Assembly (NCBI RefSeq): GCF_035083965.1
Contig: NC_089736.1
Location: 12,176,207 to 12,240,206 of the forward strand
DNA: 64,000 bases
From: Branchiostoma lanceolatum
Lineage: Eukaryota > Chordata > Leptocardii > Amphioxiformes > Branchiostomatidae
Reading direction: 5' to 3'
A model generated the notes under the pieces. The model was not told the origin of the DNA and made no database searches. It was given only the letters and a program-made list of their open reading frames with translations. How positions within the stretch are numbered: position 1 is the stretch's first letter; the number at the start of each line of letters is the position of its first letter. The translations under genes and the position numbers were made by a program. This document shows positions 4,500 through 61,672 of the stretch, one piece after another.

Positions 4500-8655
<4,156 letters not shown>

Positions 8656-10158: not shown

Positions 10159-10176
10159 AGATTATAAGCCAACAAC

Positions 10177-18731: not shown

Positions 18732-18784
<53 letters not shown>

Positions 18785-26747: not shown

Positions 26748-27961
26748 CGTTGTATCGGTGTTTGGTGCGATATGGCGTCTTACTGCTGTTGCTGTTAATC
26801 TCTGTTTGAATAGCATGTGAAGTCACCTGTTCACAACTTGCTGAACAGGTTTCAGGTTACAAAGTGACCTACATAGCTTCATTAGAGACACGTCATCTTA
26901 CTTAGGACGAGGTGAATAAATCAGGAGAACTGTAGTATTTTCGAGGAACAACCTTGCTCAACCAAAACTCGTAAAAATTTAGAGCTAGTAGCGATCAAGG
27001 AGGTCTATACAACCTCCTTGTAGCGACCAGCTGTCGATTTCTCATTGGAGGACGAACTTATTTACCTGAACGATAGGGGGCGCTTTTGCAACATTTCCCA
27101 GCATGCCCGATCCAAGATGGCGTCCAGTTGTGCAGACGACATTTTCCGGTTGATGACGAAATCTCGGTAAGAGTGACATGAAACCGAACCGGAACATCAT
27201 AACAACATCGTGACGATGTTTTTGCAGCGATTTGGGACGATATTTTGTGCTGTGAGGTTTCACAACAGGCGCGAATTCTAACAAAACTTCCGAAATCGCG
27301 AAGGGACCCCTTTTCGCCCCCCCTCTCAAAAATTACTTATTTTTACCAGGGATGAAACTTTTATTACTTAGTCTGCATTTTTTGCTGCAATATCATGATG
27401 CACGAAGTATAAATTAGAACGTGATCCACAAAAATGTTTTGGAGGTGCCCCAATGCTTAGACCCTCGGAGAAAACAAAAACCAAAACAACTTTATATTTA
27501 GACGTGTCAGATGATTGCTTTGGCGTGGAATCGCAGATAGTGGCGTAGTTAACATTTACCACATCCTTTACAGTTACGGTCAACTTCGCGATGTTCGCTT
27601 TGCTTTAGCTTGGAAAACAGAACGCCAACATATATCATTTCTAGCCAACACTGTTCAAAGCTAACGACCACGATGTCAAAAATCTATTAAACGCTATTGT
27701 CTCTACCAATATTGCTCAATATTATGAAAGCTTGCGACTAGATATAAGTCCGAAATAACAGCAAAGGTCGCCGTACATTTGTAGCTATCAAATAACTATA
27801 TTGATGCGTAGTATGATATGGCAGATGCCCAACAATACGTAATGCCAGTAGAGCTACTTGTAAAAGTCAGTTGGCCGGGAAACGATGTTTACCATTTAAC
27901 TTTACATCCTGATCTTGGCAGGACTCGTGGTACGCACCACCATATCACCACGGCTTGACTC
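26748..27961. other. Intergenic region between divergent TLCD4-like and Kelch paralogue 2 genes
   Basis: Divergent promoters are expected here. At 27117-27166 (+) an ATGGCGTCCAGTTGTGCAGA start runs to a GTAAGA donor after 17 codons' worth of sequence. It looks like a first exon or leader with an upstream ORF, but no acceptor joins it in frame to 27962. No other gene is visible. Confidence 0.45.
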
Positions 27962-30900
27962 ATGTCAACACAAATAGGCAAACCAGCCGGTCGGATCTCC
28001 GTGCAAGGCGAAACCACCGGCTTGTCGCAGTGCTTGAAGCGGAAGGAGCGCGACTCAGACCCCGAAGACATGGGGAAGGCGGTCCCTTCCTTGAAGAGGT
28101 TCCGTCGGGACGACTCTCAGTGCGATCTCACGTTGCGCGTCCAGGGCACCGACTTTAGGGCACACAAATGCGTCATCATGGCCAATAGCGACTACTTCAA
28201 CTCCATGTTCACTCATCCTTTGAAGGAATCGGCAGAAACAGTCGTGGAACTCCAAGGGTTGAATTCGGACACGTTTGAGACTCTGTTCGACTTCATGTAC
28301 ACGTCCAACATAACGCTAACGGAGGAGACCCTTCAGAGTATTTTGTCGGCCTCCACGTATCTACAGATCCCCAAAGCACTGGAGAAATGTTCCGGCTACT
28401 TGGAAGAGACCATGGACGCCTTAAGTTGTGCAGAAACACTTGTAACCGCAGGAAACCACGGCCTGACAAGTCTGGAGTTAATAGCCATGGAATTTTTGGC
28501 TAAAAACTTTGTCATAGCGACAGAATCACTGAGCTTCCTCTACCTTTCTCCTAAACAAGTTTTGACGCTTCTTGGTAGTGACTATACCTTCGTTTGCGCC
28601 GAGTTGGATATATTTGATGCAATAGTTCGCTGGTTCAGGCACGATTTTGAGCAGAGGGCAAAGTATGTGGGAAAAATTATGAAGAAAATCCGGTTTGGTT
28701 TGATCAGTGTGGTAGACATAGAAGAGGAGATCGTACCATTAAGCAAGGAGTTCGAAAATCGTGAGTTCTCAAAACTGGTGACAGACGCAAGAGCTTGGCA
28801 TTCGAGGAAGTACGAGCAAAGTGTCTCTGACAAGGTTAACAGTACGGCAAGGGTGTCTCCGTACATGACGTTAGTTTCTGGTATGATAGACTCAAACCAG
28901 GACTCATCCCTGGCCATACGGATGTGCCGTACGCCGTGGAAACGCAGACATCGTTGGGAACCGGTCGGGACCACTCCCAGGAACTTTGGGAAGGCAGCTG
29001 TTGCCTGTGCGGTGGTGGGTTTGTAAAATGTTTCGTTTAAAGGAAACCCAAGCAATATTAGGGCCCAAAGTCGGATTTTGATAGTCAATTTATTTAGTCA
29101 TTTCTCTACATGATTAGTTCAAACAACACTACCACAATGTATAGCGACGTGTATCATGCAAAAATACGACGTTGTTGTGATGTGAGAACTCACTGAGAAT
29201 CGTCGCTGGGGTTTTTGTAGGCTCGCGAAACTAAGGGAATCATTGTACGGCAAATTTTTGCGCGGTTTTAAAATGTTAAAAGTATGAAGTTATTACGCAA
29301 ATGTGCCAAGTATTGTTAGTAAATGTCACTACCATAAAGATTTCATAATATTTTTCATTTTGGGCCCTTATATTGCTTTGGTTGTCTTTAATAGTCTAAT
29401 TCTTACTGTCATAGATGTAAAAATCATATTGATACACGTGTATTTCCAATTTCTTATAGGAAGCCATCACAGTGAGTGTTAAGAACATAAGCCTGGATAC
29501 CAGACCGTTTCCTGGGCCTACAACAAAGCCAGCTCCACGGCCAACATGCCCCCAGGAAAACATTATCATACGTTACCACAGCTCCGAGTCTAACATGGAG
29601 CCCAGAAGCTAGCCTATGAAGGCCCTAGAAGCAGCCTGGCATCCAGGCTATAAAAAACATCGACATACAAGACTTCTTATTCAATTTTAAATACCCTTTA
29701 TCCATAGTACACAGGGAAGCCAGTTTACTATAATTACAAGGACCAGACTGGCTGAGATCCAATTATGACTCAACTGCAAAGGCAAATCCAGTTAAAGGTT
29801 TGGTACAACTGGAACCACTTCCAAGAAAACACATAGATCTAAATATGTACTAACAAGGTCACACTTGACACTAAACAGGGTCACAGTCTATTAGTACTGT
29901 ATCATAGTGGTGTCTTGCGAAGGCCACAAAAAATCTAATATCTTGGTTCTTGGATTCCTAGTCCAGCGGCATAGCTGAAAAATTATGCAAATTAGTCTAA
30001 AAGCACCAAATTTGGCACACATGTACTTGAATGTAATTGAAACAAGAATACACATGTATGTATGACGGCATCTCAGAGTCTGGCCAGAATCAATTTTATG
30101 GAATTTTTGGCCATTTTCAGACCAAAAATGTGTATTTTGGGATCCTGTGCCCTGGTAATGGAACATTTGTGCTAAATTTGGTGCTTTTAGACAAATCTGC
30201 ACCATTCAGCTAACTTTTCTATCCATGCCGCTGGGCTACCAATGTTCTTTTGTTTTTCTAGGTGGGCGACTTTCTGTATGTGGTGGGTTTTCCTAAGCGC
30301 TTCTTGGCGAGTCAATCGGAGATACACGACGACGTGAACTGGTTTATGCGGTACGACCCTCGTCAGGAGGAATGGCTCAAGCTGAGGAAGTTAAACCACA
30401 AACACTCAGGTATTAAAGGACAGTTTGCCTTGCGGTGCAGGTGTGCCACCTAGCAGTTTGCGGAGGAAGTACAGTGCAATGCACAAAGTTTTCTTTATGC
30501 TATCCGCATTGTATGGTATATACATGTGAAATTTGAACTGTAAACCTTTGTCGTCTAGACCCATGTAGTGCCTAGTGGCACATAGGGCAGCAAGTTTTCT
30601 TGTTTCAGTAAGAGGGTATCTTTTTACGGTGAGGGGGGTTTGCTAGCCCTTCCCCTTTAACATGCTTGAGGCACCTCCTAGAACACGGGACCCACATTTT
30701 ACGTTCCTTCCGAAAGATGGGTGCAGCCTCAACCGAGATGCCCTTCCTAGGATTGAAGTGAGTCCCCCCAGTTACCAACTAATTGGAACCAGGAGCTCAA
30801 CTGTGAGGCTGCTACCAGTTGAGCTATAGAGACATCTCTCGGTAAACCTTTGTACTTTCTTCTGTATATTTCCTACAGGTATGAAGCTAACATCTGTTGG

Positions 30901-31510
30901 GGACAAGCTCTACGCGTCAGGATCTTCTGATGTCACCATTGTGGAGTGCTACCTCATCAGAACCAACCGTTGGGTGGACGCGTTCGAGCTACCTCACAAA
31001 CAATTCCTGCACTCGGCCGAGTCCCACGGAGGGAAGCTCTACATCGCGGGCGGGATTTTTGTAGAGGAAGCTGGCAGCACAGCGTGCGACGACCTTATAC
31101 GCTTCGATCCAGCAACGAAAGAAGTCGCCACGCTAAAACCAATGGGGACGCCACGCTTCGGCCACAGCATAGTTTGCCATGGGAACAAACTGTACAGTTT
31201 CGGGGGAACGACCTACCACCCTGAAGTGGCGTGGGGGTTTGCCGAGAGCTCAGAGTGTTACGACATCGCGGATAATACGTGGACCACGCTGCCATCTATG
31301 CCCACCCCGAGGGGTTTCTCGGGTGTGACTGTGTTGGAAGACCAGATCTACGTGGTTGGGGGGACATGCGACGGGTTCGGTAAAACGTCGGTGGAGGTTT
31401 ACGACGTGAACGAGAAGAAATGGGAGAAGAGAGCAATGATACAGAGAAGGCTGTACTACCTTGGACTGGTCATGCTTCGACACCCTTTCAAGAAATTCAA
31501 AAATCCTTAG
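27962..31510 (+). CDS. BTB-BACK-Kelch protein (KLHL-like), paralogue 2
   Basis: Exons 27962-29014, 30262-30409 and 30879-31510 give 610 residues. Introns fall at the same positions and phases as in paralogue 1, and exon 2 is 148 nt in both. The start follows an in-frame TGA at 27956. Residues 1-52 are polar and basic (LKRKERDSDPED, SLKRFRRDD), possibly a nuclear signal. BTB is about 53-150 (CDLTLRVQGTDFRAHKCVIM), BACK about 155-285, and Kelch about 350-605 (DKLYASGSSD, GKLYIAGG, NKLYSFGGTTY, DQIYVVGGTCDG). The likely role is CUL3 substrate adaptor, as for the family. MITE B copy 4 begins 27 bp after exon 1. A plausible polyadenylation signal is near 32795. Confidence 0.92.
29041..29387 (+). 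mobile_element. MITE family B, copy 4 (intact TTAA duplication)
   Basis: A 347-bp element with family ends, flanked by TTAA at 29037-29040 and 29388-29391. It lies in intron 1 of Kelch paralogue 2. Confidence 0.85.
30640..30845 (-). mobile_element. tRNA-derived SINE (second family)
   Basis: On the minus strand the head reads TATAGCTCAACTGGTAGCAGCC (box A-like), followed by CAGTTGAGCTCCTGGTTCCA and a body shared with 15225-15395. It lies in intron 2 of Kelch paralogue 2. Confidence 0.65.
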
Positions 31511-33187
31511 GGTTGCAAAGTGTCCTATCTAGCAAAACTTCTAACCAGTGCTTTGGATTCTGTTTAGTTAGAAAAACAACAGCAAAGAAGACTTTCAAGA
31601 AATTCAAAAATCCTCAGCAACATTTTAAACTATATCCACAGGTTGTTGGAAAGAGAAGTTTCAAAGACTTATAGGTATAGTAACAGTTGAGCCATGGTGG
31701 ATAATATTTGTGTTTGCTCGGAAACTTCTATCCCACAGACAAGCAATTACAATATCAAATTAGGCAATTTTAAACCTGACATGCATACTCATAGTTATTT
31801 TCATGTACTTGAGAATTGAACTACTTGATTGTTATCTATATATGTAAGGGAAAATACTTTTATATCAATGTACTGAAGAAATTCAAACATTTTAAAGGCC
31901 CCCAGAGCATTTTATGAGGCTTGAAAACTGGAAATATTCTAGTTGCTGTAATCTTCATGAAATTGACATCTAATGCCATTGTTTACCACATTTGCGTGCG
32001 GATTTCTTATCAAAAGTGCTCAAAAGCGGCACAAAAATAAGCTACATGGTGATCTTTTAGTTTCACTGCCTAGTGTAAGACTGATATCATAGCCCCAGCC
32101 ACCTACGTCAAAATGTAGAAATGCAAAATTTAAATATAAAAATGCAAATATTTGACGGACATGCAGTCACTCTCTCATTGGTCGAACCGCTAATTGTGAT
32201 GGACAGTCAGGATCAGTCTATTAGGGTTTGTATTTTCTATCAGTTCTCACCACATGACATCGTATCTTTGCTCCGATATGTAATGGTGTTATTGAAACTT
32301 ACTATGTGTAGGAATGACTAGAAATTGGAGTTTTTTAATTCAACTTCAAGCCTCATAAAATGCTCTGGATGCCTTTAAAGAAGCTTACCCCCAAACAAAA
32401 ATATTCCCTGCTCTAGAGACAACTATTCAATGAAGGATTTTGACTGCACTTATGATATTAATATATTGTTTGTACAGAAAAAGACAATTTAAGAAATAAA
32501 TAATTCCCTGCCTAGATCAAACCAATGTTGTATAAACTTAAATTGCTAGGATTAGGAAGCAATGAATGACAAGAAGAATATCGTTTCATGTGTTATCTTT
32601 TTTCATATATAATCAGAGTACACTAGTCCATATTAACCATGCTGAATGCACTTCTACCTACGTCTTACATATCTAGGATAAAAGTGTAAAATTTGTACAA
32701 AACTAAGGATTTTACATAAACTACACCATTTATGCAATGATCAGATGTCATTTGACATGAACTTGTGTACGTTTGCATGGTTTTGAATATGGAACTGAAT
32801 AAATTGTACAAATAAATGTCAAATAGAGCCTCCTTTTTGCCTTGTTTTGGGGAGTTATAAAATCTACCGCAATTCCATATTACAGGTTAAATCAAGTTAA
32901 ACCGAAACGACAATAACATCTTCCTCTTTCTGAAATAAAATATTTCCCTTCACTCTCTTTTCTTTGATTAGGAACGAACTTGGAACATTTTGCTGAATGA
33001 AGGAATGTTGGTACGCTTGTAAAATTTTAGTCTTTCACTTATTGCTTTCTGTTATGGCCACAACTGATATCGAATAGATGTCATGCCTATAAAACAACTA
33101 CACTTTTGCTGTATAGACTCTGATGACAAACACCGTTGCATCTTTTTGGGGCCTGTTGTTTCATGTTTGCCATGTTGTACCACAGAC
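31511..33187. other. Intergenic, includes Kelch paralogue 2 3' UTR
   Basis: AT-rich sequence with AAGAAATTCAAAAATCCT repeated just after the stop (31489 and 31597). AATAAA motifs near 32795 and 32810 are candidate ends. An inverted pair (AAAGGC..CAGAGCATTTTATGAGGCTT near 31900 and its complement near 32345-32380) suggests a decayed 470-bp element. No gene is visible. Confidence 0.4.
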
Positions 33188-33595
33188 CACCCTTCTGAAA
33201 GCAGAGCCCCTATCGCTCTATTCGTTACCTCGCTGGCGTATGGGCCCTGCTCTTCACCCCTGGTAGACACGCTTCTGGCGACGTCACCACCAAAACAGCT
33301 TTCAGCCAATCAGAGGGTTTACTAAAGAACTGCTCAACCAAAACCGCAAAGGACGCTGGGAAGCTATCAACCAATCAAATTACGTCTCACATCGCTACTT
33401 TAGGTTCAGAACAAATTAACCGCCAAATTATGCCAAATAAGGATAGCTCATTAATTATTCATGAGCATCTGTCATTAATTATTCATGAGCGACCTTCAGT
33501 AACGTCGCCAGAACCGTGTCTACCGGGGGTGAAGAGCAGGGCCCCTACGCCAGCGAGCCAAATCGAGCGATAGGGGCTCTGCTTTCAGGAGGGTG
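33188..33595. mobile_element. MITE family A, copy 4 (8-bp target duplication)
   Basis: A 408-bp element flanked by CCACAGAC on both sides (33180-33187 and 33596-33603). The interior has a duplicated TCATTAATTATTCATGAGC block. It ends 71 bp from the NOP58 stop codon, so it may lie in that gene's 3' UTR. Confidence 0.9.
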
Positions 33596-33665
33596 CCACA
33601 GACAGGCACCACAATGTAAGAATTTGCTCCAGAAATGACCGCACGTTGCTGTCCAAGTCGATGGT

Positions 33666-36600
33666 TTAGTCCGAATCCTCCTCTTCCTTCACTTTCTTTT
33701 CCTTCTTCTTTTTCTTCTTCTTCTTTTCAGAGCTTGGCTGTGGAAAGGAAAATGCATTCGTGAATAGTTTCATCAGGTTGGTAAGTCACTGGATAACAAA
33801 TATTTTTGTATTTATTATTTCATTTATTGGTTCAGCATGTACATGCCAGGGTTGCCCAACTAGCTGTAGTCTATTACTAAGGGCAAACCCATGTGCGGCC
33901 ATAGGACTGTATGTTTTGAACCACTCACACCGGGAAGGACCCCTACTCTTTTCAATAAGTGCGGTGGGTTCTTTAACGTGCTCGAGGTATGGCTCTCCTC
34001 AAACACGGGACTTCCATTTAACGTCCTATCCGAGGGACGTCCCTAACCGAAGCTAGGTACTCATTTACACTTACAGGAAGTGAGGAGAGTCGTGTAAAGT
34101 GCCTTTCCCAAGGGTACAACGTCCGGGCGCATGTCCAGACATGTCTGGGGGCAAGCCGTGATCGAACTCGGGTACCCTTGTTTGATGGCCGAATGTTCTA
34201 GCCGTTACGCCACGTAACAAACACACAACCAAAAGTTTTATTCAAGACTGACTCTTAGGTGACCATCTGTCACCTTCCTCAGGGCAAGTGCGGTTCTGTG
34301 TGGGACTACATCTGTTAGCAGCGACACAACTACTTGTAGTTAGTTAAAGTTTAGTTAAAATCCTCCCACACCATTAGGTGTATAGGGCAGTGGCCATCCC
34401 TGTTTCATAGCCCTGGGCCACACTGTGGTGCAATCACTGCAGCAGGGGGCTAGTCCACTGGCAGTGAAGTGTGTTTAACTTCCATACTGTTTCAGGAGTA
34501 TGTACCATTTTTATCAAGTCTTTGGTATGACTCAATGTGCCTCTTGTCCAGAGGTGTCCTACCCGGGAGTTGAACTCGGGCCTTCTGGTTCCAAGTAATC
34601 AGAACCAGATGTGGTAAGTAACAGAAGCGCAGACCACTACACCACAGGGACACCCCGCAACTACTTGACGTGCATAACACAATTAGTCAGAATAACCCTG
34701 AGGAAGGTGACAGACAGTCATCGAAATGTCGGCCTTGAAAAGAACTCTTGGTAGCGTACAAAGACCTTTGTTATCCACGAAAATGCATCAGTCGTCGATC
34801 AGTTCAGACAGACTAGATTTTTAATATATGAACAACATGAAGTATAACGAATGTCGGACGTTTCGGCCCCCCAAAGATCAGGACGTTTCGGCCCCAGGTC
34901 AAGGACGGTTCTGCCCAAGGAAATCATGTTGATTGCCGATACGCGTCAAGTACCAAGATACGTTGACTGACAAAAGTACACAGTCTCTCTTGAAAATAAT
35001 GTTGATTTTCAATACTCGTTTCGGCCAAATAATATATAAATATCAAAAGGACAAACTCCAAGTTTAACTAATCTAACAAAGAAACGCAGTCTTAACTGAG
35101 AATCATCTTGATTGCCGATGCGCCGGCGGTCAGTGGATTCATACCACGCCATGCAGCGGCGCTAGCTATAGAGATGTTTCAGATTTAATTGTGGTAGGTC
35201 AGTGTGTTTGCTATGCTTAATGTTCAATCGTTTCACACAGATATTCGATCTGTAAATTGCATAGTAACTGTCATACACATAAGAATTAACTGGGCCGAAC
35301 CGTCCTGGACCTGGGGCCGAACTGTCCTAGACTTGGGGCCGAAACGTCGGGGCCGAACTGTCCATGGGCCAAACTGTCCTGATACCGTATAACAATGAAA
35401 CTTATATGAATTTATTGATATCTACAACAGAATATCAATGTACCTCAGGTGTTTCTGGTTCAGTTGCCGTGCTGGCCCCGCCTAACGATTCCTTTTTCTT
35501 TTTGTCTTTCTTCTTCTTTTTCTTTGCTGGTTCAGCCTCCTCTGTTTCCTCAGCTGAAAGAAAAAGTTTCTATATCATAAAAATGTCTCAAAACATGTGA
35601 ACATATATGTATACCGTCAAACCTGCCGAGCAACTACCTGCCTTCAAAGGACACATTGAAACAGTCCCGTCCATTCTTACATAGTTAAGACCCTCTCCAA
35701 GCAACCACCTGTCTTCCATAACCAGCAACCACCTTTTTTTCAGTCCCAAATGGGCCTACACCCTCCCCTGAACAACCAAAATTGATTGACAGCAGCAGCA
35801 TCTAACCCAGCAGCGGCCTCTTTAAAATGAGGATTTCTGCAAGCTCTGGCACTATCAGCCATTCATTCAGTTTCATTTATAATTTTCAACACCAGAATCA
35901 GAAACAATTCTGATACACACTGTATTCTTCACAACAATACCAGTAACAGCACTGTTAAGATAGATGCAGTTGAATTACAGTTAAAATCTGTAAATTCACC
36001 TTTTTGTGTCATCATTTAAAATCAGTAAGCACATAAATACTGCACAGAGTACAAATTGAGCTATTTAGAATTTTGACATATTAACTATAGAAACTGAATG
36101 CACTTGTTTTGGCATTCTAGGAGCAGACAACTGCAAAAAAAATAGTTTGATTGTTACATAAACACAGTTCTGACCACCTTGCCACCATTTAATTTAGAAT
36201 GAATCACTAGCAGAACTGACGTACCTTCATTTGCTGGTTCTTCCTTGACCTTGGACTTCTTCTTCTTCTTGGTTTTCTCGGGAGTCTCCCCTTCTCCCAC
36301 CTCCTCGATCTTCCTCTTCTTTGGCACAGCGGGGAGGGTGGAGTCAGCCGACGCATCAGCTACTTTCACCACACTGCAGTGGAACACAACACTGCCATTT
36401 CAACATCTGTGCATTGATTATGTCTAACATGCGGTTCACCAGATGTTAACGTGAAGCGCGAATCCGCGAGGTTTTATCGGAAATTGATATTTGGCGCGAC
36501 GATCGGGCTGTTTGAAGGCTTGAATCGACGAATTTTGATCAAATTAAGTGGAAGATACCGGAGAAATTGATCAGGGAAAACATGGAAGGAAAACATTGGA

Positions 36601-39600
36601 TGTCTTTAGGGCGTTTTGTCTAAAGTAGGGTGTTTAATTCCCTATCACATTTAGTACAGGGCGCAAACGGGACCGGTGTTGAAATGTTTTATTTCTGCCG
36701 ACTTGAATTTCCATGAATGTTTGTCAAATAAATAATAAAGTTTTGTGGTGCTAAATTACATCTATTTACCGATTGTATACAACGAAGGCCCACATAATTT
36801 CCACCTAAAGAGATGGCATTATTCAAGCTTTGTCTACCAGCAAAACTTGCCCCTCAAAATGCTGGAAATAGCGTTTCAGAGGGTCAAGATTTCAAAATTT
36901 TCCAGGGGAGCTTACCATCGGACCCCCCTAGAATTGTTGTTTATGCACATGTACACTTACAGGTACACAGGTTTAGGTGCAGGTCTGGACCTGAACTACA
37001 AGTAATGGTTAAGTTTCAATAAGGACAAAGGCATGTTCGATCACACTCTAGAGTACAGTATCCTCACCTTTTACTCTCATACTTGTCAGCCTGGGCCTTG
37101 GCCCTGCCAGCTCCGGAGATCTTCCTAAAGTGCCCCTCCTCTATCATCTTCAGCCTGGCCTCTAGTCTGGCCCTGTTCTCCAGACCCATCTCGTTTGACG
37201 TCTCCTCGCCTAAAGCGTCGTACCTGGCTGCTAGAGCTGTCTTAGCCGCCAACATTCTAGATACCTGGGTCAGGATGAATGCATGTCTTTAGTATACAAG
37301 ATATCTGAGTAAAGCCCCTATCACACATAGCTGACCATGGCCTCCCATCTTTTTCCAGACCATGGTTGGGAGATATTTGTGAGCAAGTTTTTCTCTAAAA
37401 TCATAGTAGAGTAGGGATGAGTACCGAAACCCACGTTCAGGTTCAGGTCCGGACCGGTACCCAGAGGTTTCGGTTCAGGTCCGGACCAATTAGGTCCGAC
37501 CTGAACCCATGGCATATTTTGATAATTGCCATAGCGGCATAATTATGCGGCGGCGTTTCGATCTGGTGATATCGTCACAACTGTCCTGCAATGTTTAATA
37601 GCAGTAACGTTACCTCCGGCAGTGAGAATAACCTTCTCACAAAGTTTACACTTTGCCGGTTCTGTGGGAGTTTGATTACATGGTCCCATACAATGCTGTT
37701 AGGGGAATAGCTCGCTGTGACATCGGTGCCCCACAGAGATCAAGCAAACATGACCCCGTCTGGGGTCTAGCGCAAAGAAAAACACGCGAAATATCCAATA
37801 TGGCGCCCACTGGGGGCCAAGTGGACTTCAACCAATCACATCGCTAGCTTCCCTTGACGTCATCAAACCTTGTGAGAATTTGTAAGACTTCAGGAATTTC
37901 ATAATGGTTGCCCAATGTTTTTGTCTTTTTCGAGCGCAAACTTCGCGATCTATGGAAGGTTAAAGATGGTCTAGAACGAAAAACATATATGTGAGTGCTA
38001 GATTTTTTTACCGGTCCAGTACTGAAATAACCGGAAAACTGGGTTTCGGTTTTTTGGACCTGAACCGAAACGTTTTTACAGGTCCAGAACCGGACAGGCA
38101 TAACCGGTACGCATCCCTATAGTAGAAGCTGGTGTGTTACACAGTGGGTCAGTTATACCGGCTATTTACATACAGATACCACGGTTCTGTTGGTACAAAA
38201 TGTAGTGCCAAAACAGCGATGCTTGGATTTTGCAGGATTGGTTCTCACAAAACGACGTGAGCAGCTAGACGACCCACCTTGCCCTTGTTCTTGGGTGTGG
38301 ACTGTCCCACTAGAGAGGCGTGGTAGATGAGACCATATTTGGGCGTGTCGTGTTTAGTCTTGAGTGCCCTGAACAGGGCCTTCTCCGCCCCCAGGATCTG
38401 TACTGTTGACGAGGGGTGCTTTGCCAAATTCAGCAGGGAACCTAGAATAAAAATTTACAAAAACATAAATACAATATCCATTTTAAAACCAGGCAAGCAA
38501 TTCTTTGTCAATTTCATTAACAAAGATCTTATTTTCACTCAGTTTTCTTCATTATCACACAACAGTTAATACAAGAGTAGGAAAAAATCTTGTACCACCC
38601 CTTTAATCCTATGGGGTGGTACATTCCTTCCTGTTTTCCTTCACACAGGACTGTACCATGATGTAGAACGAGGGGAGCACAGCGTACCTGCGTGTGAGAT
38701 GAGTCTAGCCCCCACCAGTTCCCCCACCATTATGGTGAGGTTGGGAGCGATGGCCATCATCCGGCTTTTCAAGTAGTCATACAGCTGCGCCCTGTACTCT
38801 GTAATGTCTATCACCTGCACAAACAAACAAACAAACAAACAACAGGTAGTCATACACCTGTATACAAACAACAATACGTAATGTGTTAAAAAATTTGTAT
38901 TTTCCGAGAACCATAGTACATTGGAACTCCTTGTTATCGAGTACTGTAGGAGCATCCTCACTAAACAGCTTTAAAGAACGGTTGCAGTCAGATATGCAAA
39001 GACAAGGTGTGATAGGCCGTTCAGTGTACATAATATAACCAGCTGCTGCCGCGCCGCGTGCCTGCGAAGCTGTTGTGTTACGCACAGGCAGTATCACAGA
39101 GGTAGCAAAGGTTGACATCATGGTGTTTTAAGGAGACCGTTTTGGATGACGACAGTAAAGCAGATATGACAGTTTGTTTCAGTGGTAGTGACGAAGTGTA
39201 GAGAGATCTTCAGTAGTCATCAGCACACTGTTTTCATCATCAACAAACTGCTGGACTGTATAAAAATACAATCCCCTAAAAATCAAGCTACAATGCCTAC
39301 AAGAATGAATTTTCAAAAACACAAATGCAAGAAATAACATTATATGAATGTTATGGGGTTCAAACAAGTCCGTATGAGTTTCGTATTGACATTTTGTTTT
39401 GGTTGAGGTAAAATTTGCAGGGAAGAAGTTATTTTTTACTTTGATCCATCATTGTACAGCCTTGTTATTGAACTTTAGAAACTACTTCGGCCTCAAACTT
39501 TTCCTCATACTGACTTGATATAAGCACAACTGTGAACCCACAAACATTCATAGAATGCTTTTTCTTGCATGTGTGTTGTCATCATTTATTAGTTTCATTT

Positions 39601-41281
39601 TACGCCTTCAGTGTTCTGGCCAGGCCTTTTCAGCATAGGGGCCCCCGATGCTGTGATCTGGACCCCCGATGCTGTGTTTCTTTCTGGGAAGAACCTTCAT
39701 AAATCTTATAAAAAGTTAATATTTGGCTTTCGAATGAGAATGTAACAGAGGAAAAACTTAACTTCACAAAATTTATCCCTCAAAATGCAGGAAATAGTGC
39801 CTTATTTGGTTATGAATGTCAAAATTTTATGCGGGAAGATGCCAGACTCCCAACCGTTATCATGGCTTTGGCACTCCGCAAGTGACTTGCGCCGTGCAAA
39901 GTTGGCCTTCTGTACCTTACCCCTATGCTGTGAAAAAATCCTGGTGAGAACACTGAACTTAAATCCTTTACATAGGAAAATGCAGAAATTTGCACTGTTT
40001 TATAACCTGCCGCCTTACCTGGTCACACAGGTATGTGATATTATCTATGTCCGTCTCTGCCACTTCCACACCCATGGAGATCTCAGCCGACTTCTTCACC
40101 TGTTCCTCTACTTCTTCAGGTAAGATGTGAGACAGGTCTGTCTTAGACGTGTTCAGTCTGTTACCTGCAGATATTAAAGATAATGTCTTTTATCGGTTTG
40201 TCAACAAACTGAATTAAAAACCAATGTAAAAACGTGGCGTTGCGGTGGCGTAGTGGCAGGGTATTTGGCCCAAGAACCCAGAGATACCAGGTTCGAATCC
40301 GGATTTCCCTGATTTGTCCCGTTGACGTCTCTGTCTAAGCTACCTGCATAGTCCCTTGAACCTTGAACGAGTGATCGGTGATGTCATCTCATGAGACAAT
40401 GGGTTTTTCTGCACCACTCAGTCCGGTCTTCCATTAGTAAATTACATGAAAATCTGTTGCTCCTTTCTTCAGTTATTCTCCTTAGAAGATTTTGACAAAT
40501 ATGCCATTGCAGTTCCAGTGTCACATACCAGGGGGCCCAAAATCGACCTTCACCTTTCTCCCTCCAACACCTACCCACATACCAAATATCATTGCGATCC
40601 ATCTAGACGTTCTTCAGTTATGCTGACTTCAAGCATCCGGACGCACACACAAACCCACACGCAAACACACTCAAAACAATATCATCATGAAAAAGTATTT
40701 TTTCATGGAGATAATAAGAGATACGTACCAATAGCTTTGACAGTTTTGGCGTAGGCCAGGTTGTCTGTGACGACTTTACTGAGCTCTGGGAAGTGCCAGC
40801 CGTACCACTCCTTACACCTCATGATGTAGTTGTTCAACTCTTTGTCCAAATCATCCAAGAGACCTGCAAGGGGAAAGTAAAACATCATGGGCGTCTCTCG
40901 GAAAGGACGTTAAATGGAGGTCCCGTGTTTGGGGAGAGCCACACCCCACACACGTTTAAGAACCCGCCAAACCTTTCGAAAAAGAGTACTTAGGGACATG
41001 CCCCGGTGTGCGATGGTCCAAACCTTCCAGTCGGTATATAGGCTACAAAAGTCTTCAGCAAGTTGAAGTTGGGAGCCTCAAAATAAAAAAAAAGAGCGAG
41101 AGCTAAACCTTCTACTGAAGACTGGATGAACAATATACTGAAACTGAGTAGAAGCAGTGCAAAAAATAGTTACTCAAGCAACTGGATAAAATTTTGAAAC
41201 AGTCAGACATTTCAGATAGTATCCGAGTTGAAGCTGGTTTCATTGTGCATGCATATAGACAGGGCGTCCAAAAATTTTTGA

Positions 41282-41322
<41 letters not shown>

Positions 41323-44300
41323 AGTGAGTGTGCGTGCTTGAGTGAGTGTGTGTGTTTGTGTTCCCGAGTGGGCGCTATGGACTAAGAATTATCTGGTAGC
41401 CTTGCATGTCAATCAATTTATATTATGTGTCCCAGTGTCTGGTATAATGACAACAATAAAGCAGAAGTTACAGTTTGTTTCAGTGGTAGTGACGAAGTGT
41501 AGAGAAATCTTCACTACTTATCAGCACACTGTTTTCATCATCAACAAACTGTTGGACTGCATAAAATACAATCCCCGAAAACCATCTACATGCAAGAAAC
41601 CAAGTCTGGTTACGGTATCAGGAAAAAAAAAGTGTCTGTGTGTGTGTGCAACACATGTACATGTGTATGTAAATACCACAGAAATGGTGCCCCTTGGCAT
41701 TCCCTGCAAAATGAGAGCATCTAATTTCTTTCTTTTCTTTGCGTAGGGCGTCCTGCTAGCTAATAGCCTGCTTACACAGCATACATCGAACCATGTATAC
41801 TCACATATGGCCTGTATGATCATAGTGTCGACCTTGTCTGGGCTGAACTTGAGCTTGTATCTGGACAGTCCGTGGGCCAGACCCAGGGCCATGGCCGCCA
41901 TCTCCTTATTTGGCAGCCCGGTGATGAGGTTATTGACCTGAGACTTGATACATCTCATGAGCTCTGCTATGGCCGTGTTGTGGACACATTGGAGGTCTAA
42001 CTTGTCCTGGAACAACAAAGATAAAAAATTGAAGTTCTGCTGCAGTACCAAGGTCAGATACCAGGGGGCCCAAAATCAGCCTTGAATTTTGGCTTCACAA
42101 CACCCGCCCACATACCAAATATCATCGTAATCCATCCAGGGGTTCTTGAGTTATGCTGACTACAATAGTCCAGAAACACACACAGACACACCAAAAACAA
42201 TATCTCCATTTTTCATGGAGATAACAAAGATACATTTCCAGTGGTTAAGGTCTCATTCCTGAGTTACTCCGTGTGTAGACTCTCAAAGAGTCCGTACGCC
42301 AAAAAATGAACGGCTGCATGAACGTGTGTTTATATCAGTGGGAAATTCCCTTTTAGCCGGCCCAACTGATCTCAAGCGTCAAACTGATGGAAGCTTGTTT
42401 GTAACTGAAGAAATTAGCAGGTAAAGTTCGGCGGTCGCACGCGAGGTCGGACGTGCACAGCCCGACATTGTAGGTGATGCGGTTGTGCGCTCTTCAGCTG
42501 GAAAGTGCCTATTTTTGGGGTGTAGCTAAGTGCAGGTTGTAAAACTGTTGGCAAAAAAAACGTTTATAGTGCCAACATAAAACCTTTAAAAACCCTTCTT
42601 TTCCTTAAAAATTTTGGCCCAATCTAGAGACCATATGTAATTAGGAAATAGAAAGACTTTTTGTCCGTTTGGACTGATTTGCAATGATAAAATTTTAGCA
42701 GTTGACAAGTGACCGTTAAAGTAGCTAAAATCAAGTTACCATTAGCAAATCAAGAATTAAAGTAGCCTGGTCTGTTTCTACAAACTAACCTTGATGGCAT
42801 TGCCCAGTTTGGCGTCTGCTACGGCCAGTTCCTCGTGAGCCTCCTTCGCTACGATCTTCTTCAGCATCTTCTTCATGGTTTTGCTCATCTTGCCTTCCAC
42901 CGCCGCCGTGGCAGCTGGAAACATGGGGGAGAAAGACACCTGTCAATCACCTGGCTTCTGCCTTCTGATTGGTCTTACTAGCACATTTAATTAAATCACT
43001 GATTACCAGACCTGTCCCTCAGTCCTGGGATGGAAATTCGCTTCCCAGGACAGACAAAAATTTTACTCTGTCCGTCCAATAAAAATCTTTAATTCCTACC
43101 TGTCAATCACCTGGCTTCTTCCTTCTGATTGGTCAAGCACATTTAAATCACTGATTACCAGGGCTGTCCCTGTCCCAGGATGGAAACTTGCTTATCAGGA
43201 CGGACAGAAATTTCACTCTCCAAAAAAATCTATATTTCATTTCATGGAAATGATAAAAATGTATTTTCATGAGCCTTAACTGACAGATATTAATTATAAT
43301 ATACACTATAATCAGTTACAATGTAAACTGAAGGGACCACCCTAAAGATTAATAATAAACTTAACTGACAGATTTAGCAATGAAAATTAACAACACGGGA
43401 TCCCAAACGATGAGTGAGATGGGAAAAGAATCTAAAGCTGGAGACAGCACTGCTGATTATATTATTTCACAATCTTCTTATGTTGTATTGTAAAAACGTT
43501 TAAACTTGTATTGTCATTATTAGCATTATGTATTTACAATAAAAAAAAGATAAAGCAGGCATCCCCAATTGAGGTGAAGCATATTCAGTATTTACAATAA
43601 TGAATAATTTTCTTGATATAAACTGAGAAATTATTATATTTTCTCAGTTTTTCATATCAAGCCTCAACTTACCAGATAGCGCCTCTGTTGTGTCATCAAA
43701 CTTCTGGAAGTGCTTGAGTTTCACGCTAAAGATTCAAACAAAAACACATCTCGTTAAGGATGAAACAAAAACCTTACCGAGGAAACACTTCAAGCAGACG
43801 TGACAGTTTGTTTCAGTGGTAGTGACGAAGTGTAGAGAAATCTTCAGTAGTCATCAGCACACTGTTCTCATCATTAACAAACTGTTGGAATGTAGAAAAA
43901 ATACAATCCCCAACAAACCATCCCTCATAACTATCTACAAACTCAAAAAGTATACTATTAGGCTCGCCCCTGAGGCGTCACCAAAAAAATTGATCTCCCC
44001 ACACCAAATTCATCTTGGAAGGTAAGATGTACAACTTATTTTTTAAAAACAAAATTTTGGAATCTCTTTGTTACAATGTAGCGCTGGTCATAAAAGGAAT
44101 AATGCTTATCAAGTACAATGCTGCATACACAAATATGTGCTAAGATTAGTAAGAAATCAGACAATACAGAAGTTCTTACATTTTGCTGGCCTTTTCTGGC
44201 GTCTCAAAGTCCTTGAAAAGTTCCTCAGTCTCCTGTAGTTTCTTCTCATTCAGTAACTGTGGAAAAAATACATTCATTTTTTGTAAGTGCACTTTCTTTA

Positions 44301-47245
44301 CTAGCATGAAAGTCTACCTGAGTCTATATACTGAACATTCAATTAAGTTTGCGCCATTCAAATATCGGGCAACGGACTTAGGAAAGGAAAGTGATCTCGA
44401 ACCAGTTTAGCTCAAATGAACTCAATGAACAGATGAGCTATTCTTCCACTGGTCATGACAGGAAGACAGACGCTATATTATATACAGTATTTACAGGTTG
44501 AACCGTTCATTGTACAGGGGAAATTCCCCTAGCTCTTTTCGACAAGCACAATGAACCATGGCATAACGTCCCGTCCTAAGGACTGCGACCCTTTCCGGTA
44601 GCGTGCATGTCGGGTGAGCGACACAGCCGGGATCGAACCCGGGGCTTCTAGTTCCAGAGGCAGGGCCGCTAACCACTGGACTAAGCACGCTGTGTACCAT
44701 GAAAATCTTGAAGGTACCGGTAAAAAACACCGGATACTGTACCGATATGAAATAATTAATTTTACTTTGTATGTGCTTATTTTGTGACTTATCTCCTAAC
44801 CTCATGCAACACCGAGAGACAACATAACTAATATACAACAAGAGTTCTACGACCTCATACCTTCGTCAAATGATTTTGACCTTTATGACTGACGTATTAG
44901 GAGTGTTTTTCATCAATCATCAATCATACCAGTTGATCCTCTTCTCCCAAATAACATAAGTTGTCCAAACCTCCTTGTTATGAATATGAGCTTAACAAAG
45001 AAGGTTATGCTAACATTTATCATCAATTATGCAAATAAGCTCCCTCCTTATTAGCATAATTTGATTCAATGGTGTTCACATTCACACAACTTCCTAATGC
45101 CACAAGTATGAAATTGCCGTCATTTACTAGTATGGAATTATAGTAGTTTCTCATTAATTATGCTAGTTAGGCCCACATTTGCATATTTCCTATCTATCAA
45201 CATTCCTCTCTTCCTTAGTTACAAATGTCACATATTTGAATAGTCATATCATGGAACACAGCAGATTTTTAAAATTGCCTCATTAATCATGCGAGTTATA
45301 ATTTGATTTGCATAATTATCATCCAATCATACAAAGCATCACGTAAGCTATCTACATACCAAAAATCATGACCATCCATCAAGACCATCTCGAGTTATAG
45401 TTTTTCTCATTAATTATGTCAATGAGGTTCTCATTTGCAAAGCTGATATCTATTAATATTTCTCTCTTCCTCAGTCACATATGTCACATGTTTGAGAGTC
45501 CTATCATGGAAATTGATGGATGCATAAACTTTCCTCATTAATTATGCAAATTAGATACTGATTTGCATAATAAGTATCTAATCATGTACATCAGCACTCA
45601 AGCTATGTACTTACAAAAATGTATGACCATCCACCAAGCCCTTCTTGAGTAATTCCCTTTCAAAGTCTGAAGCAAAACCTGCCCCTGCTATAGCCAACCC
45701 ATAGGTCTGCTTGGAGACTACCTTACCAATGCCTACAGCTGGCCATGGCTGACAGCCAATTTGTGTAACTGACGTTTCCTGCCTTCAACATGACCCCTCA
45801 TGACCCCTGCCCCTATCCATGACGCCTTGGAACAACACAGCCAACACGTACACATACTTCAGCATACAATATAACACATCTTTACACTTTTCTCGTTAAT
45901 TATGCAAAACACTTCGCCCAAAATCTAATCATCTTGAGATTTCCCACATACACACCGACACACCAACTACGACAACAAACCATCCAGGCGTTCTCGACTT
46001 ATTCTGTTCACTAACAGACACACAGACAAGCATCATCGAATAACCTTCTCGACGAAACTTCGTCGACGAAGGTAACATCTTTTATGCAGGCCGGGAGTTA
46101 TGATATCAAAGCCAAGGAGTATGGTAGTAGGAAACCTAGTTATGTTCTTTGAATAAAGATACTGACAAGTTGTTAACAGTTTGTTAATGTTTCTGTCATT
46201 ATACTACTGTCATTATTGAAGAAGTTCAGAAGAAAACACGTTAATTTTTAAAAAAATTGTCCAGGTACGGGTTCAGGTCCGGACCTGTACCTAAACCCCT
46301 GTACCTGTACCTGTGTAACAGTGGGGGTTCAAGCGCCTCCAACTGACCAGTCTAACTGGTCGCGACCTTTTAGCCTAGTGGTTAAGGCGTGCGTGCCTGT
46401 GATCTGGGCTGCCGGTTTCGGCGTGGGTTCGAATCTCGGTTGGGATCACTTGTTTCTACTCCCTCCTTTGATTTGTTTCACCTGTACCTGATGTTACCGT
46501 TTAGGTATGCAGCACTAGCCACGGTAAAAATCTAAAAATTGCTGTGTCTTTGAGTTTATGGTAGTAACCAAAATCAAGATAAAAAATGTTCACAGGTATG
46601 ATCAATCTGAGATGACCAACCATGGACTTAAAACAATTTGAGGTTTTACAGTATATATGAATTATTAGATATAACGTTATAATTGTAAACATATTGTTTA
46701 CCCAATTTGTAATGTATCCAATGAAAAGTTATAAAAAATTGGGCCATGCAATTATCTGCAATACATTCTCTCGGGAAATTCTTTTATCATGGCACAACAA
46801 ATTATCTAACATCCGTCGAAATAGACTCGAGAAGCTACAACTAGCCTGATAATTTTTTTGTTTAAATCGCCCCCCTCCCCACCTTTAAAATCCCTTATAA
46901 ATATTATCAGACATTTAAGCTATTTATAGCAAAAAGACTGCCTGTAGTATGTTTATGTTACAGTCTGTGACTTCCCTCATTGATTTGATGATATAAAACG
47001 TGCATACTGCCGCAGATTTGTTAGGAAAGTGTTAGTAAACCATAAATTGTAACACACACGTGCACGTGCGCGAAGATGTCATTTTTCACTCGGCAAAGTT
47101 CGGGATGAACAAACGCCGCATTTGGGCCCAAAATAGACGATTCAAGCGGAGAAAAAACAACGGAAATTATGCATAATACTACTAATATTGGTGTTCTTAC
47201 CTTGAATATGGCATAACCTGCCGGGGTTTCAAATAAAACCAACAT
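33666..47245 (-). CDS. NOP58: Nucleolar protein 58, box C/D snoRNP core protein
   Basis: Thirteen exons on the minus strand: 47245-47201, 44256-44180, 43725-43673, 42914-42790, 42006-41805, 40863-40729, 40164-40019, 38814-38688, 38441-38278, 37264-37068, 36373-36225, 35553-35444 and 33737-33666. Every junction is GT-AG and in frame; the product is 533 residues (human 529). It starts [15 protein letters not shown]. The coiled-coil and NOP domain contain [49 protein letters not shown] (about residues 292-304) and [14 protein letters not shown]. The Lys/Glu-rich C-terminus (about 440-533) is spread over the last three exons. NOP58 binds box C/D RNAs with NOP56, fibrillarin and 15.5K and is needed for rRNA 2'-O-methylation in the nucleolus. 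Three introns carry box C/D RNAs, as vertebrate NOP58 introns also do. The introns are heavily loaded with repeats. Confidence 0.97.
33833..34220 (-). mobile_element. tRNA-derived SINE, full length
   Basis: On the minus strand it begins TACGTGGCGTAACGGCTAGA (box A region), has GAGTTCGATCACGGC-like box B sequence, then the body shared with 14832-15200. It lies in the last intron of NOP58. Confidence 0.7.
34230..34750. repeat. Element with inverted CCTGAGGAAGGTGACAGA-type ends and nested SINE
   Basis: On the minus strand 34310-34255 reads CCTGAGGAAGGTGACAGATG, and on the plus strand 34697-34725 reads CCTGAGGAAGGTGACAGACA followed by GTCATCGAAATGTCGG. The two are inverted around a tRNA-like SINE at 34500-34665 (minus strand GGTGTAGTGGTCTGCG and CCCGAGTTCAACTCCCGGG). 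The plus-strand end resembles a hammerhead ribozyme core. Confidence 0.5.
34840..35390. mobile_element. Foldback element with GGGGCCGAAACGTC repeats in both ends
   Basis: The left end carries GACGTTTCGGCCCC twice plus AGGACGGTTCTGCCC. The right end carries the complement (GGGCCGAACCGTCCTGGACC, GGGGCCGAAACGTCGGGG) in inverted order. It ends about 50 bp from NOP58 exon 12. Non-coding. Confidence 0.6.
37412..38119. mobile_element. hAT-like foldback element with 8-bp target duplication
   Basis: A 708-bp element with inverted ends TAGGGATGAGTACCG and CGGTACGCATCCCTA. It is flanked by TAGTAGAG and TAGTAGAA, an 8-bp duplication with one mismatch. Subterminal GGTTCAGGTCCGGACC motifs recur inverted. 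A related fragment lies near 46263-46310. It lies in a NOP58 intron. Confidence 0.75.
39170..39250 (-). ncRNA. Box C/D snoRNA copy A in NOP58 intron (18S antisense)
   Basis: The 81-nt minus-strand RNA has a terminal stem CAGTTTGTT / AACAAACTG, box C ATGATGA and box D CTGA adjacent to the stem. The guide upstream of box D (TTCGTCACTACC) is the complement of GGTAGTGACGAA, a conserved 18S rRNA segment. By the fifth-nucleotide rule it would target the A of GGUA. In vertebrates NOP58 introns host SNORD11 and SNORD70, which guide 18S G509 and A512 in this region (from memory), so orthology is plausible. It sits in the intron between exons 7 and 8. Confidence 0.85.
40233..40330 (+). mobile_element. 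tRNA-derived SINE head
   Basis: GGTGGCGTAGTGGCAGGGTA and CAGGTTCGAATCCGG match the SINE at 16758-16890. It is truncated after TGTCCCGTTGACGTCT and lies in a NOP58 intron. Confidence 0.7.
40444..40715 (+). repeat. Dispersed repeat R1, copy 2
   Basis: Nearly identical to 2225-2490, including ACCAGGGGGCCCAAAATCGA and the terminal TTTTTTCATGGAGAT hairpin. It abuts the donor of NOP58 exon 6 (exon end 40729). Confidence 0.75.
40888..41040 (+). mobile_element. SINE body fragment
   Basis: Shares GGACGTTAAATGGAGGTCCC and CGTGTTTG with the SINE at 14832-15200; head and tail are missing. Confidence 0.55.
41280..41365. repeat. GT microsatellite
   Basis: A run of GT dinucleotides at 41285-41320 followed by GAGTGAGTGTGTG-type variants. 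It lies in a NOP58 intron just upstream in coordinates of snoRNA copy B. Confidence 0.85.
41471..41551 (-). ncRNA. Box C/D snoRNA copy B in NOP58 intron (18S antisense)
   Basis: 81 nt, nearly identical to copy A. The CAGTTTGTT/AACAAACTG stem, box C ATGATGA, box D CTGA and guide TTCGTCACTACC are all kept; differences lie mostly in the middle (TGATAAGTAGTGAAG instead of TGATGACTACTGAAG). It lies in the intron between exons 5 and 6. Confidence 0.85.
42045..42232 (+). repeat. Dispersed repeat R1, copy 3
   Basis: Shares ACCAGGGGGCCCAAAATC, the ACACCCGCCCACATACCAAA block and the terminal TTTTTCATGGAGATAA with 51567-51866. Confidence 0.7.
42246..42545 (+). repeat. Dispersed repeat C, copy 2
   Basis: About 300 bp colinear with 20244-20560 (shared AAAGAGTCCGTAC, GCATGAACGTGTGTTTATAT and GTGTAGCTAAGTGCAG). 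Non-coding and lies in a NOP58 intron. Confidence 0.65.
42938..43220. repeat. Tandem duplication of about 140 bp
   Basis: Two adjacent copies (about 42940-43090 and 43098-43220) share CCTGTCAATCACCTGGCTTC, CACTGATTACCAG and CAGGATGGAAA. It lies in a NOP58 intron next to exon 4. Confidence 0.65.
43804..43884 (-). ncRNA. Box C/D snoRNA copy C in NOP58 intron (18S antisense)
   Basis: 81 nt; boxes C and D and the guide are identical to copy A, and the stem is CAGTTTGTTAATGATGA at the 5' side with AACAAACTG at the 3' side. Its 3' end is 79 nt from the exon 3 acceptor border, close to the roughly 70-80 nt spacing preferred for splicing-coupled snoRNA assembly. It lies in the intron between exons 2 and 3. 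Confidence 0.87.
44515..44695 (-). mobile_element. tRNA-derived SINE (third family)
   Basis: On the minus strand it has CTTAGTCCAGTGGTTAGCGG (box A) and CCCGGGTTCGATCCCGGCTG (box B), then a body with ACCGGAAAGGGTCGCAGTCC. A degraded sibling is at 6960-7090. It lies in the first NOP58 intron. Confidence 0.75.
44860..46230. repeat. Tandemly duplicated AT-rich repeat block in NOP58 intron 1
   Basis: A unit of about 260 bp is repeated at roughly 45175-45430 and 45430-45690 (shared CTCATTAATTATG, CTCTCTTCCT, CATATGTCACATGTTTGA-like, ATCATGGAA and ACCATCCA blocks), with a partial earlier unit. Octamer-like ATGCAAAT motifs recur. Sequence near 45950-46080 resembles an inverted form of 63060-63350. 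Confidence 0.5.
46365..46460 (+). mobile_element. tRNA-like SINE head
   Basis: TAGCCTAGTGGTTAAGGCGT and GTGGGTTCGAATCTCGGTTG match tRNA box A and B. The acceptor stem does not pair well, so a SINE or tRNA pseudogene is more likely than a working tRNA. Confidence 0.5.
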
Positions 47246-47364
47246 TTTTGTGGCTAAATTCTAGATTCGCCCATCCACGCGATGAAAAAAGCTGCCAACG
47301 TACAGTGCGCAGGCGTCGTGACCTTGTGCCACTCATGGATCAGGGGTGACATCTAGCGATTGTA
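47246..47364. promoter_or_regulatory. NOP58 5' UTR and likely core promoter
   Basis: Sequence immediately upstream of the NOP58 start codon on the minus strand; CpGs are frequent. The start site is not resolved. The LINE fragment begins directly beyond it. Confidence 0.35.
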
Positions 47365-47830
47365 TTACAAACTGCAGTTCAAATTATTTTCGCCGCACGG
47401 TCCTGTGGGGACCTTTAGCGTTTTTGTTACGAACTGCAGGTCAAATACACCTGTTCGACACTCCGTTGGACCCGAGTCGACACTCTCCTCTTTAGATTGG
47501 GCTATTATGTTTCTGTTGAACCAAGGCAGGTTGTATCTGCTTGATGTTGTTTTACTAGGGATGTGCACGTTCATAGTGTGCTTCATTATATCTTTAAAAT
47601 CGTCCCATTTCTGTGTCACGGACATATCCTCAGTTCGTTTGTTAAAGTTTGCATAGTCACTAAGGTCACTCTTGATGGCCGGTTCATCAGCTTTAGTTCG
47701 AATATATACTTTTCTCTTGGGTTTCCTGTTTTTTTGGGTGCCAGGTTAACATCCATGATCCACCAATACCATGTCGTGGTCACTTTTTCCAGGAACTACT
47801 GTGGTCTTTTCAATTATGTTAGAAATGGAA
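47365..47830 (-). mobile_element. LINE ORF2 fragment (endonuclease-RT linker region)
   Basis: On the minus strand SDHDMVLVDHG-like residues are followed by WDDFKDIMKHTMN, VHIPSK and RYNLPWFNRNI. This series is typical of the segment between endonuclease and reverse transcriptase in CR1/L2-type elements. It is degenerate and truncated and lies just upstream of NOP58. Confidence 0.65.
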
Positions 47831-49306
47831 GAAAGTAACGTTATAGGGCGGCTGTGGATGGGTAATTTAGCTTGGTTGGTTTACGTGAAGGTGATTCAGT
47901 ACCAAAGACAGGTGTTAGGATTACCGAATACTGAGTAGGTCCAGAAAATAAGAAGCAAACCAATCATAAGTGTTTCTCCTTAGCTAAGGCCCTAATTTCT
48001 GTATTATCGTTACAGCTATGTACAGTCTTGTCTTTTTCCAGAAACACCCGTTGATCGTAGTATTTTTGGTGGCATTATCTTGAGTTGGTCGGCAGGCGAA
48101 GACTTCCTGGTAATGCGGCCTAGTCGCCTGATAGCCCACTGCATTTTGAGTAGACGACTGTGGTTTGCAGTTCAAATATGTAACAAAAATGGCTGTCTAG
48201 AAAAAACGTCACAATTTAGTATTCCAACATATTTGCTTGGAGATAAGATTTTTATTAAAATACACGCGATATCTATTGGTCGGTATACCATACCATACCG
48301 TGTGTGCTCGGGGTGATATATAATCATCTGCTCAGTTATGTTCTTTACCTGATATTTTTCAGTGCATCGCATTTTTCCTGCAAAATCTAATCCATTATAA
48401 CCCACAACATGACAATAAACACGATATATAAAAAACGCATTTTATTTCAAAAAAAAAAAAAATACAACAACAGCAACATTAGAAATCGCTTCCTTCCCTC
48501 ACGCCCTATTTACAAATAGTTCACAATAATCACAGTTCATAATACCAATAATAATCCATCTTTGGAAATCTAAAGCATTTTGCCTCTGCAATATTTTACA
48601 AATCATCCGGAAAATTTCACACACAAGTATCACACTTCAGAACAATAAATGAATTCACCATCACTGAATTGAAGGCAAAAATCAGCTATTTACAAAATAC
48701 TTCAGGCGTACAAATACTATGTACAACGATTATACTGTAGTCAGTTTTCAAAACATTGTCAGGGAAAATCTTTAAAAATCGTTGGAAAGCAGTCAAAAGT
48801 CACATATTGTGATGTTTTAATGGTCACTTATATTATATATATACAATAGTTTTTATGCACTTAGAATATTGTCATATATTATTATGCTGTCCATGCCTAA
48901 TTCTATTGTGATGTCTTTGCTTTGTCTGCAGGGCTAGCCTTTTACAATAGCCACAGGCTAGTTGACATGGATGTCTGCAGCCGCCATAAATCTGCCCTGA
49001 TGCCTGCGGTTGATTGATTGATTGATTGACAGGCTAGTTGAGTAGCCCTGACTGTGTGTCCTGAATAGCCAAACCCATTAGCCAACAGATCGCTAATGTT
49101 AGCCCCAAAACATAAAAATCTGTTCATTTTATGATAAAGACTTCACCATGAAACATTTACAATATTACAGCCGGATTTCTGTGTATGACAACAGTGTAAA
49201 AGTGGTCATGTTACTTGTCTATACACATACATGTTTCGTGGACTGTACATGAAGAAAAACTACCACTGTTTAACAGCAATAAGTGCATATGTACAGATGA
49301 CGTCAG
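47831..49306. other. Intergenic and 3' UTR of the CUB-domain gene
   Basis: A minus-strand AATAAA near 48440 next to a poly-A-like run could end the CUB gene, giving a 3' UTR of about 870 nt. A short (TGAT)n tract is at about 49012-49030. No further gene is visible. Confidence 0.4.

Positions 49307-61672
<12,366 letters not shown>

Follow-up and report, generated by a model that had tools for sequence, protein, structure and literature searches.

Nearly the same 81-nt segment stands in three introns of one gene in a 64,000-nucleotide stretch of DNA from Branchiostoma lanceolatum (contig NC_089736.1; the whole stretch is called the window below). What are these segments, on what might they act, and how did one gene come to hold three of them? 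A preliminary description, made from the sequence alone, had proposed box C/D snoRNAs antisense to 18S rRNA in introns of NOP58. The analysis reported here leads, with very high confidence, to one reading as a whole: three intron-encoded copies of SNORD70, which would guide methylation of 18S rRNA and would have spread by copying between NOP58 introns. Published reports are cited by accession.

Three copies of a box C/D snoRNA

The three segments are located on the minus strand at 43804-43884 (A43), 41471-41551 (B41) and 39170-39250 (C39), and each is exactly 81 nt long. Box C (ATGATGA, consensus RUGAUGA) was found near the 5' end of every copy at positions 11-17, corresponding to 43868-43874, 41535-41541 and 39234-39240 in the window. 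The 12-nt guide TTCGTCACTACC occupies copy positions 56-67 (43818-43829, 41485-41496 and 39184-39195) and is identical in all three. It is followed by one A and then by box D (CTGA) near the 3' end, at copy positions 69-72 (43813-43816, 41480-41483 and 39179-39182). A terminal stem of 9-10 bp was present in the three copies, with 100% of the cells paired and one G-U pair in one copy. Coordinates, length, 9-bp stem, both boxes and guide were exactly as first described in all three places. The copies are also near-identical, as had been claimed, with 76, 77 and 78 of 81 positions shared in the pairwise comparisons (94-96% across all 81 nt).

Two results from folding count against the preferred reading. 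In unconstrained folds with 40-nt flanks the terminal stem was formed in A43 and B41, whereas C39 paired otherwise; the fold of C39 also showed a stem external to the terminal one, which was given no weight as support. Furthermore, the guide is partly paired inside the snoRNA in the consensus fold of the three copies.

The sequence TTCGTCACTACCACTGA occurred exactly three times in the window, always on the minus strand. No further site with up to three mismatches was found in the window, and shuffled windows were expected to hold 0.12 such sites each; none of 100 shuffles reached three.

Six of the 81 positions are variable (10, 18, 33, 35, 38 and 46). None of them falls within the 41 positions of stem, boxes and guide, for which P was about 0.012 under random placement, the partition having been picked after the data were seen. 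The earlier statement that guide box and stem are conserved while the middle varies stood in its first half, stem, boxes and guide being free of variable sites. Its second half did not, since the identity given above extends over all 81 nt and the middle of the copies therefore hardly varies.

Two of the differences in B41 create GTAGTGA at its positions 35-41 (B41 being 41471-41551, minus strand), which is a piece of the 18S target discussed below. This motif can pair with the guide at -10.7 kcal/mol, compared to -6.0 in A43 and C39 and -20.7 for the 18S duplex. The self-complementary motif is probably due to chance.

Assignment to SNORD70

The Rfam covariance search that had been proposed as a check gave SNORD70 (RF00575), which we take to be the snoRNA also named HBII-234, as the top-scoring family at all three places. 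The match was full-length in each copy (model positions 1-89 of 89), which supports the box C/D class and fits the link to SNORD70 made in the preliminary description. Bit scores were 50.4 for A43, 48.2 for B41 and 48.0 for C39, with E values of 1.8e-05, 5.7e-05 and 6.1e-05 in a 20-kb search and of 5.8e-05, 1.8e-04 and 2e-04 over the whole window. The Rfam gathering score for SNORD70 is 50 bits, so that A43 is above it and B41 and C39 are just below, and this slight shortfall in two of three copies counts against the preferred reading. At the standard threshold Rfam recovered A43 and nothing else from the window. Since B41 and C39 escape that cut-off, the present record is useful for annotation.

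The copies resemble SNORD70 in the full-length covariance match, the 12-nt guide, the predicted 18S site and the host gene of the chicken homologue. They differ in that the match here covers 87 nt on the 89-position model, 2 nt being missing before the guide, and in being three in number. Seven of the ten Rfam matches within 30000-50000 were set aside as being under their own cut-offs: FTX_3, tRNA, bantam, MIR8001, SNORD100 on B41, and SCARNA7 twice.

The host gene NOP58

The gene was outlined from 47245 to 37068 on the minus strand, the outline being confined to this part and any exons farther 3' falling outside its scope. Exons 1 to 5 are at 47245-47201, 44256-44180, 43725-43673, 42914-42790 and 42006-41805, and exons 6 to 10 at 40863-40729, 40164-40019, 38814-38688, 38441-38278 and 37264-37068. 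Exon 1, located via an N-terminal peptide motif, starts with the ATG at 47245, codes for 15 residues and is followed by GTAAGAAC; it was left out of the joined translation. The other nine exons, joined at GT-AG junctions read by eye, gave one frame with no stop. At E=1.7e-189 this translation matched the human NOP58 chain 7mq8_SB, the alignment spanning query residues 2-408 (633 bits, versus 318.3 bits for human NOP56, 7mq8_SA, with the same query), in agreement with the host gene named in the preliminary description.

A43 is located in the intron 43726-44179, 78 nt from the intron 3' end; B41 in 40864-41804, 607 nt from the 3' end; and C39 in 38815-40018, 355 nt from the 3' end. By count these are introns 2, 5 and 7, provided that no small exon was missed. 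All three copies are in sense orientation relative to NOP58. Location in NOP58 introns is also found for the chicken homologue GGgCD13. NOP58 is presumably the host gene of human SNORD70 as well.

Predicted target in 18S rRNA

All 12 nt of the guide, TTCGTCACTACC, recur without change in an 18S reverse (antisense) primer published for work with human Huh7 cells (PMC11011473). They also lie within the 18S reverse primer of a Toxocara assay paper, where the available excerpt leaves the source species of the amplified 18S unstated (PMC3533947). The proposed 18S target was thereby recovered through published 18S primers of other organisms and not through the 18S rRNA of this organism.

In box C/D snoRNAs the methylated position is marked by the fifth nucleotide upstream of box D (PMC6466398, excerpt). 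In all three copies this nucleotide is a T, opposite the A of GGTA. For the human molecule, G509, A512 and C517 are listed as sites with overlapping guides, namely snoRD11, snoRD56 and snoRD70; T514 and C517 are also named in this region, in passages that do not print the letters (PMC5612246). GGTAGTGAC contains a T and a C at the spacing of three that the numbers T514 and C517 demand, and on this numbering the A paired with the guide is 512. The box D rule points to A512, in human numbering, as the predicted methylation site.

An animal 18S string had no match in the viral or genome contigs scanned; these collections are described as viral, bacterial and archaeal, so this says little. The snoRNA pattern likewise had no match in the viral contigs scanned, which says little about animal relatives.

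Flanks and origin of the copies

Similarity between the copies extends beyond the snoRNA. The ungapped repeat unit is 120 nt, over which identity with the reference copy is 91% and 87% for the other two. Between pairs of copies, identity amounts to 81-88% over about 27 nt upstream and to 55-75% over the first 20 nt downstream. Farther out, two 65-nt blocks per copy (36-100 nt upstream and 31-95 nt downstream) showed no similarity above shuffles in six of six comparisons, with 26 to 182 of 200 shuffles scoring at least as high as observed. The claim that the surrounding introns are unrelated must therefore be narrowed: it holds for the 65-nt blocks and fails for the near flanks, which are alike. 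Either the flanks were copied along with the snoRNA, in a unit of about 120-145 nt, or they aid processing, and three sequences cannot tell which.

A repeat unit longer than the snoRNA would also be seen if the copies were dispersed repeats with a snoRNA-like sequence and no snoRNA function. This explanation is extremely improbable. A covariance model of the repeat unit, searched against the 64-kb window and not the rest of the genome, found only A43, B41 and C39, the next matches having 10.6 and 9.6 bits (E 1.8 and 3.4). Moreover, all three are sense-oriented in NOP58 introns and carry an intact 12-nt 18S guide.

The shared 5' flanks can form a possible 8-bp hairpin directly 5' of each copy in the consensus fold of the three, at 43887-43909 (A43, with one U-U mismatch), 41554-41574 (B41) and 39253-39274 (C39), all on the minus strand; these coordinates were counted by hand from alignment columns. 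Hairpin and terminal stem together comprise 18 pairs. None of these was changed on both sides among the three sequences, and the shuffle control equalled the observed measures in 500 of 500 shuffles; therefore, there is no evidence of covariation for the hairpin. When the partners in these pairs were slid by 1 to 3 columns, paired cells fell from 98.1% to 24-56%.

The hairpin bears on a further explanation, in which the snoRNAs also act in cis in the NOP58 pre-mRNA and sense the level of box C/D core protein, like SNORD86 in NOP56. NOP58 is itself a core protein binding this class of RNA, and feedback involving NOP56 and SNORD86 has been described (PMC10324135 and PMC8162545, excerpts). Like the present copies, SNORD86 is a box C/D snoRNA whose host intron belongs to a core-protein gene of its own snoRNP class. 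It differs in being termed an orphan (PMC8162545, excerpt), with a reported feedback on splicing, whereas A43, B41 and C39 carry an 18S guide. With the hairpin also lacking covariation, action in cis is very unlikely. Less likely still is the more specific idea that the three copies with their shared flanking hairpin make the NOP58 pre-mRNA a sensor of snoRNP assembly, on which NOP58 protein would feed back through three sites in NOP58 splicing.

Proposed processing and mode of action

Sequence anatomy, family match and host gene were observed directly, whereas the steps from expression and trimming to methylation, and the manner in which the copies spread, are suggested by analogy with the known family. 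The NOP58 pre-mRNA would be spliced and each snoRNA then trimmed from its intron; trimming of box C/D snoRNAs ends near the C and D boxes (PMC4053766, excerpt). Box C/D core proteins, including NOP58 itself, would bind each trimmed snoRNA, and the 12-nt guide would pair with 18S rRNA at GGUAGUGACGAA. Fibrillarin would thereby be directed to 2'-O-methylate the A (A512, human numbering) opposite the fifth nucleotide before box D. The copies themselves would have spread from intron to intron within a single host gene.

Box C/D snoRNAs are best placed when the branch point follows them at a distance of about 50 nt (PMC8162545, excerpt). A branch-like motif, CTTAAC, was read by eye about 50 nt past A43. 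Judged by distance, the placement of A43 fits the position of best processing, and those of B41 (607 nt) and C39 (355 nt) do not. A variant of the preferred reading is suggested by this, with A43 as the working SNORD70 gene and B41 and C39 as poorly processed duplicates. A43 also has the highest Rfam score, the terminal stem was absent when C39 was folded without constraint, and some or most copies of a snoRNA may go unexpressed (PMC10234308, excerpt). Against this, stem, boxes and guide are intact and without a variable site in all three copies, while the farther intron blocks have no detectable similarity. The variant is a serious but lesser possibility. Three copies might raise or buffer the supply of SNORD70; selection for dosage or redundancy, which had been suggested earlier, stays a hypothesis.

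Comparison with known arrangements

In chicken, introns 3 and 6 of NOP5/58 hold the two isoforms of GGgCD13, whose mammalian homologue is HBII-234 and which guides methylation of 18S-A-473 (own numbering) via a 12-nt element at box D (PMC2653536, excerpt). According to the same excerpt GGgCD12, the homologue of HBII-95/snoRD11B, occupies introns 8 and 9, its site being G-470. The spacing of three from G-470 to A-473 equals that from G509 to A512. The pairing of vertebrate SNORD11 and SNORD70 with NOP58, as stated in the preliminary description, accordingly holds for chicken.

GGgCD13 and the present copies have in common that one guide occurs in multiple copies across NOP58 introns, with a 12-nt antisense element at box D. 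They differ in number and place, chicken having two copies (introns 3 and 6) and the present gene three (introns 2, 5 and 7); this numbering implies no homology between introns. The intron order (2, 5 and 7 here; 3 and 6, and 8 and 9, in chicken) may point to an early origin of these positions. Because two NOP58 copies are on record for chicken, three are unsurprising and the arrangement is an ordinary one. Intragenic duplication is given as the origin of almost all chicken snoRNA paralogues (PMC2653536, excerpt), and by analogy the three-copy state can be seen as one step further on this known path. A further genome is hereby added in which NOP58 introns contain SNORD70 more than once; the view of how snoRNAs work is left unchanged. 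No title on this locus was among the matches listed in a literature search on amphioxus and Branchiostoma.

SNORD11 had no Rfam match in the window at the standard threshold or up to E 1, nor within 30000-50000 up to E 5. A search string antisense to 18S at the neighbouring site matched five places, all with two mismatches, versus 3.94 expected by chance; a SNORD11 partner was rejected.

Other features of the window

A SNORD12/SNORD106-like match was observed at 6093-6184 on the minus strand, with 34.9 bits versus a cut-off of 43 (E 0.0022 in the window). It is located downstream of 6668-6805 (minus strand), the translation of which matches ribosomal protein L15 with E 5.2e-22, and is possibly another intronic snoRNA, in an RPL15 gene. 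Rfam mir-577 matched both strands at 335-407 with 54.2 and 52 bits versus a cut-off of 100, perhaps as a palindromic or repeat-derived artefact. On the plus strand, both 17063-20077 and 27959-31507 are of the kelch-like family, with one open frame for BTB-BACK and, after it, another for kelch repeats. A stop-to-stop frame of 466 aa at 10168-11565, also on the plus strand, matches the MFS_5 transporter family with E 4e-89 over profile positions 3-326 of 356.
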